Part shown: piece by piece, positions 252 to 33,927 of the stretch
Position numbering within the stretch: the stretch's first letter is position 1
Layout of the letters: each line of letters begins with the position of its first letter
Source: Acidimicrobiales bacterium
Lineage (GTDB): Bacteria; Actinomycetota; Acidimicrobiia; Acidimicrobiales; AC-9
NCBI GenBank assembly: GCA_036270875.1
Contig: DATBBR010000143.1
Span: 1-34,024, forward strand
Reading direction: 5' to 3'
DNA length: 34,024 bases
Notes under the pieces: model-generated
The model's database searches: none
What the model saw: the letters and a program-made list of their open reading frames with translations, nothing else
What the model was told of the DNA's origin: nothing
Program-made: the position numbers and the translations under genes

Positions 252-1451
252 GTGGACGTGATCATCCGGACCATCGAGCCAGCGGAGGCCGAGGCCTGCG
301 CGCGCGCCGCCAGCCTTGCCTTCAGCCAGCCCTTCGACAAGGAGCGGTTCGAGGCCAGCTTCGACACCCTGGAGCCGGAGCGCACCCTGGCCGCCTGGGA
401 GGGTCCGACCGTGGTGGCGACGGCAGGGGCGTCGACGTTCCGTCTCTCGGTACCGGGCGGCCACCTGGGCGCCGCGGGGGTGCGAAACGTGGGGGTGCTG
501 CCGACCCACCGGCGTCGCGGCCTGCTGACCGAGCTCATTCGCCGACAGCTGGACGACGTCCGCAGCCGAGGGGAGCCCCTCGCCTGCCTCTGGGCGTCGG
601 AGAGCCGGATCTACCGCCGCTTCGGCTTCGGCCTGGCCGTCCTCGGCCTGAGCTGGGAGGTCGCCCGGGCGGCGACCCACTTCGTCCCCGGGATCCCGGT
701 GGACCTGCCCGTCCGTCTCGTCGAGGGGGACGAGGTCCGGCCCGCGATGGCCGCCGTCCACGAGCGCCTGTGGCGAACGAGGCCGGGGATGGTCGACCGC
801 TCCCCCGCCTGGATCAGCCTCCTGCTGCGCCGCCGCCGTGAGCTCCGCCACGCCCTGGTCGAGGGGCCATCGGGCGTCGAGGCGTACGCCTCGTACCGGG
901 TGACCGCCGACTGGAGCATCGGCGGCCCTCTACACGAGCTGGTCGCCGCAGAGGTCATCGCTGTCAGCCCCCAGGCCGAGGGCACCGTCTGGCGGTTTCT
1001 CCTCGACACCGACCTGGTCCGCACAGTCAAGGCCGGCCAGCGTCCGGTCGACGAGCCGCTGGTCTGGATGCTGGCCGACACCCAGGCCCTACAGCGCCGG
1101 GTGACCGACGCCCTCTGGGTGCGCCTGGTGGACCTCGAGGGGGCACTCTCCGGCCGCCGGTACTCGACCGACGTGGGTGTGGTTCTCGAGGTCTCGGACG
1201 CCTTCTGCCCGTGGAACGAGGGGCGCTGGTTATTGGAGGGTGGTCCTGACGGCGCCCGGTGCACCCGGACCTCCGCACGACCCGACCTGAGCCTCGATAC
1301 TGCCGACCTGGCCGCTACCTTCCTCGGCGGCGTCGGCCTCGGCCCGCTCGTCCGCGCTGGTCGCGTGGCCGAACGCGTCGCCGGCGCTGCGGCTCGCACG
1401 CACGCCGCGCTGGCGTGGGACCCCCCACCGTGGGCGGTCACCTTCTTTTAA
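252..1451 (+). CDS. Eis-like GNAT family N-acetyltransferase
   Basis: The product of 399 aa has the length and layout of the Eis group: an N-terminal GNAT domain, a second GNAT-like half and a sterol-carrier-like C-terminal domain. The acetyl-CoA loop [11 protein letters not shown] is at residues 82-92. The IYRRFGFG segment at 120-127 carries the tyrosine (Y121) at the position of the Eis general acid. The chain ends in Phe, as in Eis, where the C-terminal carboxylate takes part in catalysis. Family members acetylate amines, including aminoglycosides in mycobacteria; the substrate here is unknown. I chose the GTG at 252 because the longer ATG reading from 171 adds a low-complexity, Pro/Arg-rich stretch. 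GTG at 258 is also possible. No clear Shine-Dalgarno is seen. Confidence 0.85.
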
Positions 1452-1500
1452 GATCCGCCCGAGCGCACGCGGGCGCACATCCACGCACGGGAGGTCCATC

Positions 1501-1791
1501 ATGATCGCCGCCTTCTCTCTGACCCCGCTCGGCGTCGGGGAATCGGTCGGCGAGCTGGTCGCCGACGCGATCAGGGTCGTGCGCGACAGCGGGCTCGCTT
1601 CGGAAACCAACGCCATGTTCACCAACGTCGAAGGCGAATGGGACGAGGTGATGCCGGTCATCAAGGCCTGCGTGGACCGGGTCGCAGAGAGGGCGCCCAG
1701 GGTGAGCCTGGTCATGAAGATCGACTTTCGTCCCGACCATGACAACGCCATGACGACGAAGATGCAGTCGGTGCTGCGGCACCTCGGATGA
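1501..1791 (+). CDS. MTH1187-family thiamine-binding protein (UPF0045)
   Basis: This 96-aa protein fits the MTH1187/YqgV family: a small ferredoxin-like fold that assembles into tetramers and, in characterised members, binds thiamine or its pyrimidine part. Diagnostic stretches are the opening [21 protein letters not shown], the central T(N)[15 protein letters not shown] and the late [11 protein letters not shown] good Shine-Dalgarno (GGGAGG, 1489-1494) precedes the ATG. It ends 4 nt before the GTG of glycerol kinase, so the two are very likely cotranscribed and translationally coupled. Why a thiamine binder would travel with a glycerol kinase is not apparent from sequence. No TPP riboswitch is visible in the 49-nt gap upstream. 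Confidence 0.85.
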
Positions 1792-28472: not shown

Positions 28473-29587
28473 GCCCCCGCCTCCTCCACGGCGCGGGCCA
28501 GGTACTCGGCTCCAGTCCGGTCGATGCGCTCCCGATCGAATCCGGTCAGGTCCTGGCCGGCGACGTAGCGAGCCCACCGCGCCGGCATCGACTCCAGGTC
28601 GACCGCCTCGACCTCGGCGCTCACCCCCGCGAAACGGGGCTCGAGCTTGCACCACAGGGCGCCACGGTGGGCCTCCCGGACGGCGTCGGTATCCAGCAGC
28701 CGGTACGCCTCGGGGTCGACGCCGTCGATGAACAACCGGGCCACCGCCCCATCGGGCACCGTCGACACCCGGGCCAGCACGGCCTCCTCCACCTCGCGGG
28801 GCCCGAGACCGAGCGCCTCCACCGTCTCCAGGGTGACGAGCGGTCGCTGGCTCTCGACGGGCACATGGCGGCACTCGCCCGAGTCGGTGTCGAGCAGGAC
28901 GATCCCCTTGGGCCGCTGCGGGTCGTCGGCGAAGGAGAACGTCTCGGTCGATCCCGCGTACCACATGCCCGGTCGCACCGTCGTGTGGATGTGGAAGTGG
29001 CCGAGCAGCACCAGGTCGGCCCGGATGCGGCCCGCGTCCACCTCGATCTCGTTGATGTCGGCATACCGGGGCTCGACCTGGGGAACGCGGGGATGGGTGA
29101 GCAGCAGGTTGGTCCGGTCCAGGCTGCGCTCGGCGTGGGCGCGGTCGAGTGCCGCGAGGGTCGCCTCCACGGTGAGCATCTGGGGTACCGCGTGGACCAC
29201 CAGGCCGGGAAGCTCGAACCGCTCGTAGGTAAGGCGGTGGGCGAAGTGCATGCCATCGAAGGCGTCGGCCAGGGCCGAGTACGGACTTCCCGTTCCGGGC
29301 AGCCGGGGAGTGTCGTGGTTCCCGGTGATGACCACGGCCGCGATGCCGTGCTCGCGGATCCTGGCCAATCCCCGCTGGGCCACTCGGAACGAGCGGTACG
29401 TCGGGCGTGGATGGTCGAACACGTCACCCAGCCATACGACCAGGTCCGGCTCCTCGGCCAGCGCGGCGTCGATCGCGACCTCGAACGCGAGCTCGAAGTC
29501 TCGCTCGCGCTGGTTGACTCCCTCGGGCGTCGTGACCGGGTAGTAGGAGCGCCCCAAGTGGGCGTCGCCGAGGGCCGCCACGCGCAT
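28469..29587 (-). CDS. sbcD: Mre11/SbcD-type DNA exonuclease
   Basis: The 372-aa calcineurin-like phosphoesterase has all metal-site motifs: GDAHLG (D8, H10), GDVFDH (D55), GNHD (N90, H91, D92), LLLTHP (H165) and GHFHIH (H197, H199). The C-terminal half is the capping and Rad50-binding region. Mre11/SbcD nucleases act with Rad50/SbcC as a two-metal nuclease on double-strand ends and hairpins. ATG 29587 lies 2 nt after the herA stop, and the 3' end overlaps sbcC by 4 bp. Placement between HerA and Rad50 matches the archaeal gene order rather than the usual bacterial sbcDC pair. Confidence 0.93.
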   Translation of the reverse strand: MRVAALGDAHLGRSYYPVTTPEGVNQRERDFELAFEVAIDAALAEEPDLVVWLGDVFDHPRPTYRSFRVAQRGLARIREHGIAAVVITGNHDTPRLPGTGSPYSALADAFDGMHFAHRLTYERFELPGLVVHAVPQMLTVEATLAALDRAHAERSLDRTNLLLTHPRVPQVEPRYADINEIEVDAGRIRADLVLLGHFHIHTTVRPGMWYAGSTETFSFADDPQRPKGIVLLDTDSGECRHVPVESQRPLVTLETVEALGLGPREVEEAVLARVSTVPDGAVARLFIDGVDPEAYRLLDTDAVREAHRGALWCKLEPRFAGVSAEVEAVDLESMPARWARYVAGQDLTGFDRERIDRTGAEYLARAVEEAGA

Positions 29588-29589
29588 GA

Positions 29590-31164
29590 TCAGTCCACCA
29601 ACGCGGCGACGTTGGCCGCGGCCGACGGCCGGGGAGCAGGCGCCGGGTCACAGGCGCGGACCGCGTCGTCGTAGAGGTGAACCATGGCGGGCACGGCGAA
29701 CGGCGCCTCCAGGTTCACCAACAGGCACTCCCCCGGCATGAGGGTCTGGATCTCGGGACCCAGGCCGGAGAGATCCTGCTTGGAGGAGGCCCGGAGGATA
29801 CTGCGGTCCTTCTCGTCGGCGAGACCGAGGACGAAGAAGGTGTTGAACTGGCTCAGCAGCTCGTCGTCGAGCAGCTTGGGCTGCTGGGTGATGGCGCACA
29901 GGCCGACCTTGAACTTGCGTCCCTCACGGGCCAGGCGGGGGAACACGTTGGACTCGCGGTCCTTGGTGGACCTGAGGACCCGCTGCGCCTCCTCCAGCAC
30001 GATGGCGACCACCGGCAGTCGCTCGTGGCCCTCGGGGTCGTCGAGATACGCGTTGGACCACTCGTCCATCACCCGGCGGGCGAGGAAGGAGGCGACCAGC
30101 ACCTCCTCGGTCGAGCCGAGACCGCTCACGTCGACGAGCACCACCCGGCCGCTGCGCAGGTCCCGCAGGACGGCCGCGCCGACCGAGACGGCAGGGTCGG
30201 TCGCCACACACGGCAGGTCGACGATGCGGCGAGCCCGGCGGTGCACGACCTGGAGCGTGTTGAGCGCCACCCTGCCGTTCAGCTCGACGTCGCGGAAGCC
30301 GGGCAGGTCGTCTAGCTGGGCGAACTCCAGCAACCACGAGAGACCGTCGGCCCGGTACACGCGCTCCAGCTCGAACAGCGCCTCCTCCTGGCTGCGGGAC
30401 CAGTCGTAAGCAGTGCGGAGGTCGTCGACGCTCAGCTCGGCGAGGCTGACCCGCAGGCTCGTCGTGCCCGGCAGGGACCGGGCTGCATAGGTGCGCAGCG
30501 CCTCGGACGCCCAGGGGTGGCGACCCAGTGCGGACCGATATTCTCCGTGAGGATCGACGAGCAGGAGGCCGTAGCGGCCCTGGCGCCGCATCACGGCGCC
30601 GGCCAACACCTGCATGAGGTTCGACTTTCCCATGCCGGTGGTGGCGAAGATGCCGACGTGGCTGGCCAGGCTCGCACCAGAGATCCCCACCTCGACGTCG
30701 ACCTCGGTCTCGCCGCTGCGCAGCTGGCCGATCGCCAGGTCCCCCATGCGGCTGCGCAGGAAGGCGAAGTCCGCCGGCTCGGGGGCGACGACCCGGCTGA
30801 ACTGGGTGGGCAGGCTCTTGGGCTTGCGGAAGGACCGCCCGTCCGGAGTCACGTAGCCCAGGCACCGGCACTCGGCGACGCGATAGGTGCGTCGCCCGCG
30901 GTCGTAGAGGGGATGCGAGTCGGCTGACCCGATCACGTCGTCGGCGAGGAGCGTACCGGCCACCCGCTCGGCCCAACCCGGCTCGCGGTGCTCCGTCCCG
31001 TACGTCACGTCGACGACCCGGAACAGGTAGCGCCGTCCCGTCGTGTCGTCGATCCCGACCAGCAGCTCGCCGAGAAACAAGTCCTCGTCCGGCGCGGCGC
31101 GGAAGATGCCCTCGAGCACGTTCCGGCCGAACAGGCGGCCCCTCGGACCGGGCATCTCGCTCAC
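29590..31164 (-). CDS. herA: HerA-type DNA translocase ATPase
   Basis: The 524-aa protein is a HerA/FtsK-superfamily ATPase: an N-terminal HAS-barrel-like domain (about 1-130), Walker A GIFATTGMGKSN at 171-182 (K180), LLVDPHGEY, Walker B VVAIVLEEAQRV (E391/E392), sensor ITQQPKLLDDELLSQFNTFF at 425-444, and the C-terminal LGPEIQTLMPGECLLV. Hexameric HerA drives DNA through the NurA nuclease during end resection. GTG 31164 overlaps the nurA stop by 4 bp (GTGA). The longer reading to 31545 shadows nurA. The 2-nt gap to sbcD ties it to the Mre11-Rad50 genes. Phage-defence HerA systems also exist, but the SbcD/SbcC partners favour repair. Confidence 0.92.
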   Translation of the reverse strand: MSEMPGPRGRLFGRNVLEGIFRAAPDEDLFLGELLVGIDDTTGRRYLFRVVDVTYGTEHREPGWAERVAGTLLADDVIGSADSHPLYDRGRRTYRVAECRCLGYVTPDGRSFRKPKSLPTQFSRVVAPEPADFAFLRSRMGDLAIGQLRSGETEVDVEVGISGASLASHVGIFATTGMGKSNLMQVLAGAVMRRQGRYGLLLVDPHGEYRSALGRHPWASEALRTYAARSLPGTTSLRVSLAELSVDDLRTAYDWSRSQEEALFELERVYRADGLSWLLEFAQLDDLPGFRDVELNGRVALNTLQVVHRRARRIVDLPCVATDPAVSVGAAVLRDLRSGRVVLVDVSGLGSTEEVLVASFLARRVMDEWSNAYLDDPEGHERLPVVAIVLEEAQRVLRSTKDRESNVFPRLAREGRKFKVGLCAITQQPKLLDDELLSQFNTFFVLGLADEKDRSILRASSKQDLSGLGPEIQTLMPGECLLVNLEAPFAVPAMVHLYDDAVRACDPAPAPRPSAAANVAALVD

Positions 31165-32222
31165 GCCCGCTCCATGAGCCGGTGGCGGTCGGCGAAAGCC
31201 CGTTCCCGCACCTCCAGGCCGACGCCGGCGTCGTGAAGGTGCTCGTCGAGGGCCAGCCAGGCCTCCTGCCGCACCCAATGGGGACAGGCAGCGAGGCCAT
31301 CGGCCACGGCCAGCGGGTAGGGATAGCCGGGAAAGGCGGCGTCGTCGGACACAGCGGCAAGGGCGGCGAGTGCAGATTCGGGCGACGTCCCTGCGGGAAG
31401 ATCGATGCGAAACGAGAAGCGTGCCGCGGGGTCGAGCCGGGCCGCCACCACCTGGACGGCGAGGGGGGACGTGGGCTGCTCTGGCGCCACATCCGGTTGG
31501 CTGCTGTCCTCGGCCGGGCGGCTTCTGGCCACCGGCGCCCACCACCGGGCGCCAGGGCCGAGCGCCTCATCGGCCTCCGCCTCGAGCTGTCCCAGCAGGG
31601 GCGCACCGCCGCGCGACAGCGACGAGTGCTTGGTCACGCCGACAACCAGGACCCCATGCTGGCGCGCCCGCTCCAGCAGGGCACCGACGTGATCGGACGG
31701 GATGCGCCAGTCGGGCCACAGGTCGCCGTCGACCAATACCAGGGCGCCGTCGTCGGCCTCGTCGACGCATCGCTCGACCGCATCCCACTCCCACCGGTCG
31801 CGCACCAGGTTGGCGTCCACAGCCGTGTGGGGCGGAAGGGGCAGACCGAGGTGGGCGAGCGCAGCCCGGCTCTCCGCACCTCCGAGCAGATAGGCGCGGA
31901 GCGGCTCCGCGTCCTGCTGCTCGCAGACGCCCGCCCGGAACCGCACCCGGGACGTCCTCGTCACCACGACCTGGAGGCATCGGGCGTCGGCCACGACGGC
32001 CTGTCCGCCGTCAACGGCCCACACGTCCGAGGGGACAGCACCCTTCGGCAACGGCCGCGGTCGGATCACCGGCTCGATATCGAGGCTCGGCTCACCGGGA
32101 TCGGCCGGGCCCCCGCCGCCCGTCGTGAGCAGGGTCGCCAACCGGGCCGCGGCTGCCTCGATCGTGCCGGCCTCGATGGCGCCTGTCTCCACGGGCTCGA
32201 GGGTCTCAAGAGGGTGTGACAC
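31161..32222 (-). CDS. nurA: NurA-domain 5'-3' nuclease
   Basis: The 353-aa protein has the RNase-H-like NurA layout: AVDGGQAVV (D71) on the first strand, VLVDGDLW (D165), GVTKHSS (K198) and the C-terminal GYPYPLAVADGLA (299-311). Between them lie helical segments and a variable Pro-rich stretch (about 230-252). NurA forms a dimer at the base of the HerA hexamer and degrades the 5' strand. The start is GTG 32222 with no Shine-Dalgarno; TAAGCT ends 7 nt upstream, so a leaderless message is likely. It is first in a four-gene operon. An inverted repeat TTACAG-CT-CTGTAA (32233-32246) overlaps the promoter. Confidence 0.88.
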   Translation of the reverse strand: MSHPLETLEPVETGAIEAGTIEAAAARLATLLTTGGGGPADPGEPSLDIEPVIRPRPLPKGAVPSDVWAVDGGQAVVADARCLQVVVTRTSRVRFRAGVCEQQDAEPLRAYLLGGAESRAALAHLGLPLPPHTAVDANLVRDRWEWDAVERCVDEADDGALVLVDGDLWPDWRIPSDHVGALLERARQHGVLVVGVTKHSSLSRGGAPLLGQLEAEADEALGPGARWWAPVARSRPAEDSSQPDVAPEQPTSPLAVQVVAARLDPAARFSFRIDLPAGTSPESALAALAAVSDDAAFPGYPYPLAVADGLAACPHWVRQEAWLALDEHLHDAGVGLEVRERAFADRHRLMERA

Positions 32223-32229
32223 CCAATCC

Positions 32230-32250
32230 AGCTTACAGCTCTGTAATTAC
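32230..32250 (-). promoter_or_regulatory. nurA promoter with TTACAG/CTGTAA inverted repeat
   Basis: TAAGCT (32235-32230, minus strand) ends 7 nt before the nurA GTG. A perfect 6-2-6 inverted repeat, TTACAG-CT-CTGTAA, spans 32233-32246. Read on the minus strand, the region gives TAATTACAG-AG-CTGTAA, nearly the same as 132-149 at the left end of the window, which points to a shared regulator. Confidence 0.45.
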
Positions 32251-32283
32251 ATGACACGGCCGGCGGCCGCGACCCCGTACCTG

Positions 32284-32312
32284 GTGACGAGCGGCCCGCC
32301 ACATGGGATCAT
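32284..32312 (+). promoter_or_regulatory. Putative rnpB promoter
   Basis: GTGACG (32284-32289), a 17-nt spacer and GATCAT (32307-32312) match the -35 and -10 consensus at four of six positions each. The predicted transcription start, about 32319-32320, coincides with the 5' end of the rnpB P1 helix. Confidence 0.45.
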
Positions 32313-32320
32313 GGAAGGGA

Positions 32321-32710
<390 letters not shown>

Positions 32711-32712
32711 TC

Positions 32713-32903
32713 ACCTCTCCCTGTCGAGCGGCCTAATATGGCCCCTGACCTGGGATTTCCTCTTGTCCGCGAGTGGCCGTTGGTGACCGCCAGCGACCGT
32801 TTTAGTCCTCAGAGCTGAGGACTTTCTGAGGACCTGAGGACTTATTGCTGGCCTGGGGACACCGGATCAGCGAAGCCGCTTGACGACTACACCCGTGGCA
32901 TGT
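32713..32903. other. Left arm of the putative element, no gene
   Basis: This 191-bp stretch contains no supportable gene. It holds the weak hairpin at 32730-32743 after rnpB and the CTGAGGAC repeat cluster at 32804-32842, and is otherwise unassigned. Confidence 0.5.
32804..32842. repeat. CTGAGGAC repeat cluster, left
   Basis: Direct copies of CTGAGGAC start at 32815, 32826 and 32834. An inverted copy, GTCCTCAG (32805-32812), makes a 9-2-9 palindrome, AGTCCTCAG-AG-CTGAGGACT, with the first. The first two direct copies are 11 bp apart, about one helical turn, as in the right-hand cluster. Binding sites for a recombinase, its directionality factor or a regulator are possible. Confidence 0.8.
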
Positions 32904-33422
32904 CTAGGCGCCGCCGCCGGGCCCGGCCGCGAGATGGCGGTACAGGAGCGGGAGGACGCGCAGGTCCTTCGGCCGGCCCGCTGCTTCCTTCGACCGGATC
33001 ACGTCGTTGAGATCGGCGATCACAACCTCGACGTCGTCGACCCGGACACGGTGGGCGTGAGCGGCAAGGTCGGGGTAGCCCTGGCTGAAGCCCTCGGGCC
33101 GAAAAGAGATGTCGAACTCGCCGTACGGACAGATGAGGTTCCAGACCTGCGAAGCGGCAAGTGACGTCGCGTCGTGGTCGAACTGGAGGCCTTCGGGGAC
33201 CGCCTCCGTGCGGATCCGGGCGCCAAGGTCCTTCAGGGCGGCCGAGATGCGACCGAGGTTCTCCGGGCTGGCCTCCGGCGTCAGGTCGATGTCCCGAGTA
33301 GCGGGGATCGGGACGTGCTGGGCGATCGCCGCGAAGGCGCCGATGACCACGTAGCGGACCCCGTGCTCGTTGAGAACGGAGATGATCGCGGTGGCGTTCA
33401 GCTCCGGGGGATCGGCGTCCAC
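32904..33422 (-). CDS. Nucleotidyltransferase-fold protein, AbiEii/MenT-like toxin candidate
   Basis: The product is 172 aa from GTG 33422. It has a minimal nucleotidyltransferase core: VRYVVIGAFAAIAQHVPIPATRDIDL with the D-x-D pair (D44, D46), a third acidic residue in GEFDIS (D104) and the late VIRSKEAAGRPKD (141-153), typical of AbiEii/MenT-like and related families. MenT-type relatives add nucleotides to tRNA and block translation. It lies 16 nt downstream of an XRE-type gene on the same strand, a toxin-antitoxin-like order. The start is uncertain: the frame is open to 33530 within the XRE gene, and no Shine-Dalgarno is clear. Position inside the repeat-bounded interval suggests horizontal acquisition. 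Confidence 0.78.
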   Translation of the reverse strand: MDADPPELNATAIISVLNEHGVRYVVIGAFAAIAQHVPIPATRDIDLTPEASPENLGRISAALKDLGARIRTEAVPEGLQFDHDATSLAASQVWNLICPYGEFDISFRPEGFSQGYPDLAAHAHRVRVDDVEVVIADLNDVIRSKEAAGRPKDLRVLPLLYRHLAAGPGGGA

Positions 33423-33438
33423 TGTGCTGTGCGTCGGA

Positions 33439-33771
33439 TCAACGCACCGGCGTGGCCTGTCGCCACGCCTGCATCTCTCGATCGCGTCGGCTCCGCTCCG
33501 TGGGCGAACGCCCCGCTTCCAGAGCTTCAAGCACCTCGTCGTGGGGGTCGAATGGGACGAGCTGCATGCGCAGATCGAAGCCGGCCGCCCTGAGGAGCCG
33601 GAGCAGCGTGGCGAGTGTGGGCTGACGGCGGTCCCTCTCGTAGGCCGAGATCATGGTAGGCGGCACCCCCGCCCGCTCGGCTAGCTCCCGTTGGCTGATG
33701 CCGGCTCGGAGACGAGCGAGCTGGAGCAGCGCGGCAGCCGTGGAGGGAACCTCCTCATACGACTGTGTCAT
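33439..33771 (-). CDS. XRE-family HTH protein, antitoxin candidate
   Basis: The 110-aa protein carries a Cro/C1-type helix-turn-helix at about 17-60 (LARLRAGISQRELAERAGVPPTMISAYERDRRQPTLATLLRLLRAAGF). A tail (LRMQLVPFDPHDEVLEALEAGRSPTERSRRDREM) could wrap the partner. It precedes the nucleotidyltransferase gene, matching toxin-antitoxin pairs in which the XRE protein neutralises and represses. TACAAT (33783-33778, minus strand) ends 6 nt before the ATG, so the message is probably leaderless. An 18-bp imperfect palindrome (33770-33787) covers the -10 and start codon and is a good candidate for autorepression. Confidence 0.85.
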   Translation of the reverse strand: MTQSYEEVPSTAAALLQLARLRAGISQRELAERAGVPPTMISAYERDRRQPTLATLLRLLRAAGFDLRMQLVPFDPHDEVLEALEAGRSPTERSRRDREMQAWRQATPVR

Positions 33772-33787
33772 AACACAATTGTATCAT
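33770..33787 (-). promoter_or_regulatory. Promoter/operator of the XRE-nucleotidyltransferase operon
   Basis: Read on the minus strand, the half-sites ATGATACAA and TTGTGTTAT form an 18-bp palindrome matching at 7 of 9 positions per arm, centred on ACAATTGT. The -10 TACAAT lies within it and ends 6 nt before the ATG. The AT-rich block stands out in its GC-rich surroundings. Confidence 0.55.
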
Positions 33788-33829
33788 CCATCCAGCCACG
33801 GGTGGTTCCGCTCGGGGGACGGCGACGAG

Positions 33830-33848
33830 CTGAGGACCAGCTGAGGAC
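33830..33848. repeat. CTGAGGAC repeat cluster, right
   Basis: Two direct copies of CTGAGGAC start at 33830 and 33841, 11 bp apart, in the same orientation and with the same spacing as the first two direct copies of the left cluster. A partial CTGAGG overlaps the end of the second. Confidence 0.8.
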
Positions 33849-33901
33849 TGAGGGGTCCCGGGGCCTACAAACCCCCAGCTCAGAGACGTTTTCGAGCTGT
33901 T

Positions 33902-33927
33902 CCCCGCCTACAGGCCGGCTCACCGTC
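33902..33927 (+). repeat. attR-like direct repeat (copy of rnpB 3' end)
   Basis: Exact 26-bp copy of 32687-32712. Only the last part of rnpB is present, so it is not a second RNA gene. It marks the right boundary of the putative element. Confidence 0.85.

Follow-up and report, generated by a model that had tools for sequence, protein, structure and literature searches.

When a stretch of 34,024 nt from an Acidimicrobiales bacterium (GCA_036270875.1, contig DATBBR010000143.1, positions 1-34,024; hereafter the window) was analyzed, a cassette of 1215 bp was found to be inserted precisely in the 3' tail of rnpB, the RNase P RNA gene. An empty site is present in the same assembly, and both ends of the cassette are homologous to the ends of integrase-bearing elements. 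Because these ends are complete but the integrase is absent, and no close integrase is found in the assembled genome, the cassette is considered non-autonomous. We regard it, with a probability of roughly 0.85, as an rnpB-inserted integrative element of CIME-like type that needs an integrase supplied in trans. The first-pass annotation had proposed a minimal, non-autonomous cassette with rnpB as its attachment site, and this proposal is supported by the empty site and by the integrase-bearing relatives with the same ends.

Tail repeat, empty site and cargo

The exact recurrence of the 26 bp rnpB terminus 1215 bp downstream, as first annotated, was confirmed by the repeat pair itself and by the Rfam match; by chance, a 34-kb stretch would hold about 1e-7 such pairs. 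As the class A model is matched over its whole length, rnpB is intact and its 3' end is the first copy, the second one being a detached tail. The repeat is an attL/attR pair (Table 1). Between the two copies, only an XRE-type gene and a nucleotidyltransferase (NTase)-like gene were recognised and no recombinase ORF was found among the ORFs of the 1215 bp interval, in agreement with the earlier description of a toxin-antitoxin-like pair without a recombinase. The ~60 bp separating the left arm-type repeats from the NTase gene contain no integrase remnant.

Table 1 Features of the rnpB locus in the window
Feature	Position	Strand	Evidence
rnpB, class A RNase P RNA, intact, target gene	32324..32711	+	Rfam RF00010, 209 bits, full model
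attL core, left copy of the 26 bp rnpB tail	32687..32712	+	Exact repeat; the empty site has the same core
Integrated cassette, 1215 bp including the right core copy	32713..33927	.	Contig C24 of the same assembly has the rnpB tail joined to the right flank without it
Left arm-type repeats (predicted), one inverted GTCCTCA and three direct TGAGGAC	32803..32847	+	Same layout before the integrase gene in G067, G010, G030 and G163
NTase-like gene, candidate toxin	32904..33422	-	TRDID, D104 and KEAAGRPK residues; fold like TM1012 and MenT1
XRE-type HTH gene, candidate antitoxin	33439..33771	-	Pfam HTH_3, E 6.6e-15; pairing with NTase kept in related loci
Right arm-type repeats (predicted), two direct TGAGGAC copies	33827..33849	+	5/5 occurrences in 397 genomes precede an rnpB tail
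attR core, displaced native rnpB tail	33902..33927	+	Exact repeat
Chromosomal right flank, common to contig C24	33928..34024	+	Alignment with two substitutions and one 2-bp indel

When the whole assembly was searched for the 26 bp core, three copies only were obtained, and the single copy outside the window is on contig C24, 25 bp short of its end. In reverse complement, this contig runs from the rnpB tail through the core directly into the right flank known from the window, with no cassette in between. G001, a genome of the same genus, has an uninterrupted rnpB, and C24 is collinear with the sequence downstream of it. The uninterrupted site, sought as a check on the first annotation, is present both in the assembly itself and in this relative. 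In its first 51 bases C24 is identical to the window contig at 32662-32712, as would be expected if the assembly graph had branched there. The simplest reading would be that the sequenced population holds occupied as well as empty rnpB. As the two flanks differ slightly, we take this as strain variation and not as proof of present excision; the empty site of C24 appears to come from a related strain, not demonstrably from excision. No circle junction or other trace of excision was seen in the assembly.

Just upstream of rnpB, the window carries a probable pair of HerA-like ATPase and NurA-like nuclease genes (29590-32222, minus strand; assigned by reading the translations). The region 29385-32714 aligns with G001 at 85 % identity.

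Within the cassette, the NTase-like gene lies 16 bp downstream of the XRE gene, both on the minus strand. In a profile search the NTase-like gene gave only a sub-threshold match to DUF6036. The TRDID, D104 and KEAAGRPK residues are conserved, as expected of the fold, and structure prediction gave a confident NTase fold (mean pLDDT 92) that resembles both TM1012, a putative NTase, and MenT1, the toxin in the MenAT1 complex. The pairing of XRE and NTase genes is conserved in more than 20 of 65 related loci, many of them from Acidimicrobiales or other actinobacteria. With a DNA-binding protein and a toxin-fold protein encoded side by side in the same orientation, the two genes have the arrangement of a type II toxin-antitoxin (TA) system, a role that is likely for them. 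Adjacent co-oriented genes and an NTase fold closest to TM1012 and MenT1 are shared with the MenAT/NTase type II systems, whereas the partner in the cassette is of XRE type and the NTase is less than 20 % identical to solved structures. Searches for a defence-system or NCBIfam assignment gave nothing specific for the pair.

No further XRE-NTase cassette at rnpB was found among the 65 related loci, and no flanking direct repeats were seen around 14 close relatives of the pair. tRNAs are near such relatives in only a few of 20 loci. In two Acidimicrobiaceae genomes (L103 and L104), an XRE-NTase pair lies about 3 kb upstream of rnpB, outside the tail repeats.

Ends shared with integrase-bearing elements

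The TGAGGAC copies near both ends of the cassette had first been annotated as paired iterons. The repeats are indeed there, at about 32805-32841 and 33831-33848; the iteron reading was not retained, and from sequence comparison they are best read as predicted integrase arm-type sites. When the right-hand arm pair GAGCTGAGGACCANCTGAGGACT was searched with up to 2 mismatches in 397 genomes of the order, five occurrences were found, each of them followed after 50-65 bp by an rnpB-tail copy.

Both cassette ends are matched in G067, a genome of another family. Its left end follows rnpB immediately on contig C14, its right end is on contig C24 of that genome, and the two are joined by inference. With the core left out, 94/111 and 63/71 aligned positions match between the window and the two G067 ends, and the alignment scores of 115 and 77 compare with maxima of 30 and 28 in 1000 shuffles. 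The ends of the cassette derive from an integrase-bearing element, which may have been an ICE, an IME or a phage. G067 encodes an intact tyrosine integrase of 373 aa shortly inside the left arms (Pfam Phage_integrase, E 1.8e-20). Arms and integrase are arranged in the same way in G010 and G030 (the G030 frame being matched only in part), and G163 has an integrase with a broken frame at this position. Of the parts that make up an rnpB element, the window has the core and the arm-type repeats near both ends, but where relatives have the integrase, just inside the left end, it has the end of the NTase gene.

Close relatives of the G067 integrase mostly lie at rnpB. Eight of ten integrases with at least 45 % identity to the G067 enzyme are beside an rnpB tail, compared with one of the 20 less similar integrases checked, for which a tRNA gene was found in the flanks examined in 11 cases. 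In a tree of 33 integrases, those at rnpB group together: the rnpB label requires four changes, compared with a shuffled mean of 10 (0/500 shuffles as low). A cognate integrase was not found in the bacterium's own genome, which is 97 % complete: four PF00589 matches were obtained, each either distant or fragmentary (46 % over 74 aa in the best local match), and nothing matches the G067 integrase at E ≤ 1e-40. A tyrosine recombinase linked to further core copies, another check that had been suggested, is present in relatives with the same arm repeats and was not found in the own assembled genome. In two viral contigs of IMG/VR (L186 and L187), the rnpB-tail core adjoins such an integrase and no rnpB gene was found in the stretch examined, an arrangement that would be expected of a phage attP. 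In L187, GTTTTGGCCGC repeats flank the core on both sides.

The window, G067, G020, G005, G277 and others also share a TGACCTGCGGTTT-like motif that flanks the core: one copy is some 30-45 bp within the left end, and at the right end the motif recurs inverted as AACCGCAGGTCAG. It is common to elements whose arm repeats differ. It is perhaps a further protein site.

Origin and mobility of the cassette

The observations would be explained by site-specific recombination, in which a tyrosine recombinase inserted 32713-33927 inside the 26 bp tail of rnpB. The tail would have served as attB, and the attP of the element would have consisted of the core, the core-proximal inverted motif and the arm repeats, at which we infer that the integrase binds. 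The incoming tail copy would have rebuilt rnpB and the native tail would have been displaced to 33902-33927, leaving the cassette with a complete attL and attR, that is, with core, core-proximal inverted motif and TGAGGAC arm-type repeats. The integrase of the left end, which relatives have, would have been lost by the cassette or never carried. Mobilisation would then depend on an integrase acting in trans, from a related element or a phage, for excision as a 1215 bp circle as well as for integration. The XRE/NTase pair, with the NTase as presumed toxic partner, is probably a TA module that penalises loss.

Two rival explanations have little probability. A repeat could arise without site-specific recombination if the rnpB tail had been duplicated locally in tandem or the assembly were in error; the window contig ends only 97 bp beyond the second core copy, and an exact repeat of tail and flank in G379 resembles a duplication. 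However, the repeat in the window stops at the 26 bp core, the empty junction exists in C24 and many genomes have the same arrangement with different contents. As a sole account, duplication or artefact is refuted by the ends shared with integrase-bearing elements, and we consider it extremely unlikely. The TGAGGAC repeats could instead be operators of the XRE protein and not arm sites of an integrase, since the right set precedes the XRE start codon by about 55 bp, a plausible place for an operator. This is improbable too, since the repeats stand just before the integrase gene in G067, G010, G030 and G163, and are equally spaced from the rnpB tails in G050, G067, G163 and G196 beside readable cargo that differs.

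The remaining alternative shares its origin with the preferred reading and differs from it only on mobility today. A full rnpB element would have inserted once and undergone a large internal deletion, leaving a dead, immobile remnant, and the empty-site strain would never have had the element. Decayed rnpB elements with broken integrases do occur in G050, G163, G011, G196 and others, the cassette itself is known from one genome only and the own genome has yielded no integrase, so the odds of such a relic fall only a little short of even. Against it, both complete arm sets and two intact genes have been retained, and the short interval between the left arms and the NTase gene is free of integrase remnants. 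Beyond the non-autonomous element proposed here, a wider suggestion can be made rather tentatively: in this order rnpB may be a dedicated, recurrent attB for a clade of tyrosine integrases and for phages, whose elements would spawn circulating, integrase-less mini-cassettes, down to 1.2 kb in size and with hardly more than a TA pair and complete att arms, in the manner of MITEs.

Among known systems, the cassette is nearest to CIMEs, cis-mobilizable derivatives of ICEs or IMEs which have lost the integration and transfer genes and kept attL and attR, and for which tandem arrangements are known (PMC5704250). Like these, the cassette is flanked by attL and attR with a precise empty site and has no integration or transfer genes, and a tandem arrangement of rnpB elements is exemplified by G163. 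It differs in its attB, rnpB, and in its size of only 1.2 kb. Mobilisation of a CIME takes place in cis, once it has undergone accretion with an incoming one. Descent from an ICE or IME is unproven, and the cassette is therefore called CIME-like and not filed as a confirmed member. Islander-type islands enter the 3' end of a tRNA or tmRNA gene, rebuild the target and leave a displaced fragment that marks the far end (PMC4383910). To that extent the cassette agrees with them, as it lies in the 3' end of an RNA gene that has been rebuilt, with the displaced fragment at the far end; in contrast to them, its target is rnpB and an integrase of its own is absent. PICI-type phage satellites are likewise small and would need another element to move. 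They usually carry their own integrase and genes for interference or packaging, whereas the cassette has none of these.

Integrative elements that land in RNA genes classically do so in tRNA and tmRNA genes. In one actinobacterial order, mobile DNA also lands in an essential RNA gene, rnpB, and this single-copy gene has an integrase clade of its own, represented by integrated elements in many genomes of the order and by viral contigs. A search of the open-access literature for rnpB as an attB gave unrelated mentions only, and priority is not certain. At the DNA level very little may be needed, namely an att site with arm repeats at either end and genes that probably form an addiction pair, and the cassette is a small, well-defined substrate for asking whether non-autonomous cassettes move on a borrowed integrase. 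The elements also provide a new attB/attP/integrase set for actinobacterial genetics.

Other elements at rnpB across the order

Among 205 genomes with a recognisable rnpB tail, 25 by our count have a second tail copy, at least two of which (G085 and G184) are contig-end overlaps and not elements; the reversed control pattern gave no matches. A phylum-wide survey of the tail gave no usable signal beyond the order, its sequence there having diverged too far. Other cargo between the rnpB-tail repeats, which the first annotation had recommended looking for, was found in other genomes, and its contents vary.

The element of G020 (L071, G020:C177) extends for 10.3 kb after rnpB and contains terminase-, portal- and capsid-like genes (translations read) together with an intact integrase. 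It appears from these genes to be prophage- or satellite-like, and its arm repeats are of GCGACAC type, unlike the set in the window. G005 has a 16-kb element with a MobF-like relaxase (translations read), and G045 has an element of 14 kb. In G163 (L083, G163:C108, 780-9000), an rnpB element of 7.7 kb with the frameshifted integrase, an aroA-like gene and TA-like genes is followed in tandem by the remnant of a second left end. Next to its right end G163 has a pair that looks similar to the one at the right end of G067, which consists of a DUF433 and a PIN-like protein. G050 contains a decayed element of 1.3 kb with an integrase pseudogene and a Uma2 gene.

In G246 (L169, G246:C54, about 700-1526, minus strand), two 33-bp rnpB-tail copies enclose 804 bp with a DUF805-SHOCT gene only, no recombinase and no recognisable arms; this segment is possibly another mini-cassette. 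G379 (L168, G379:C64) was rejected as a clear parallel because its tail and flank form an exact direct repeat of 111 bp, 402 bp apart, which looks like a duplication rather than an element. In four further cases (the end of G054:C17, the start of G046:C44, G232:C27 and G135:C209), the assemblies break exactly at the rnpB tail, and such breaks may mark further mixed or repeated insertions.
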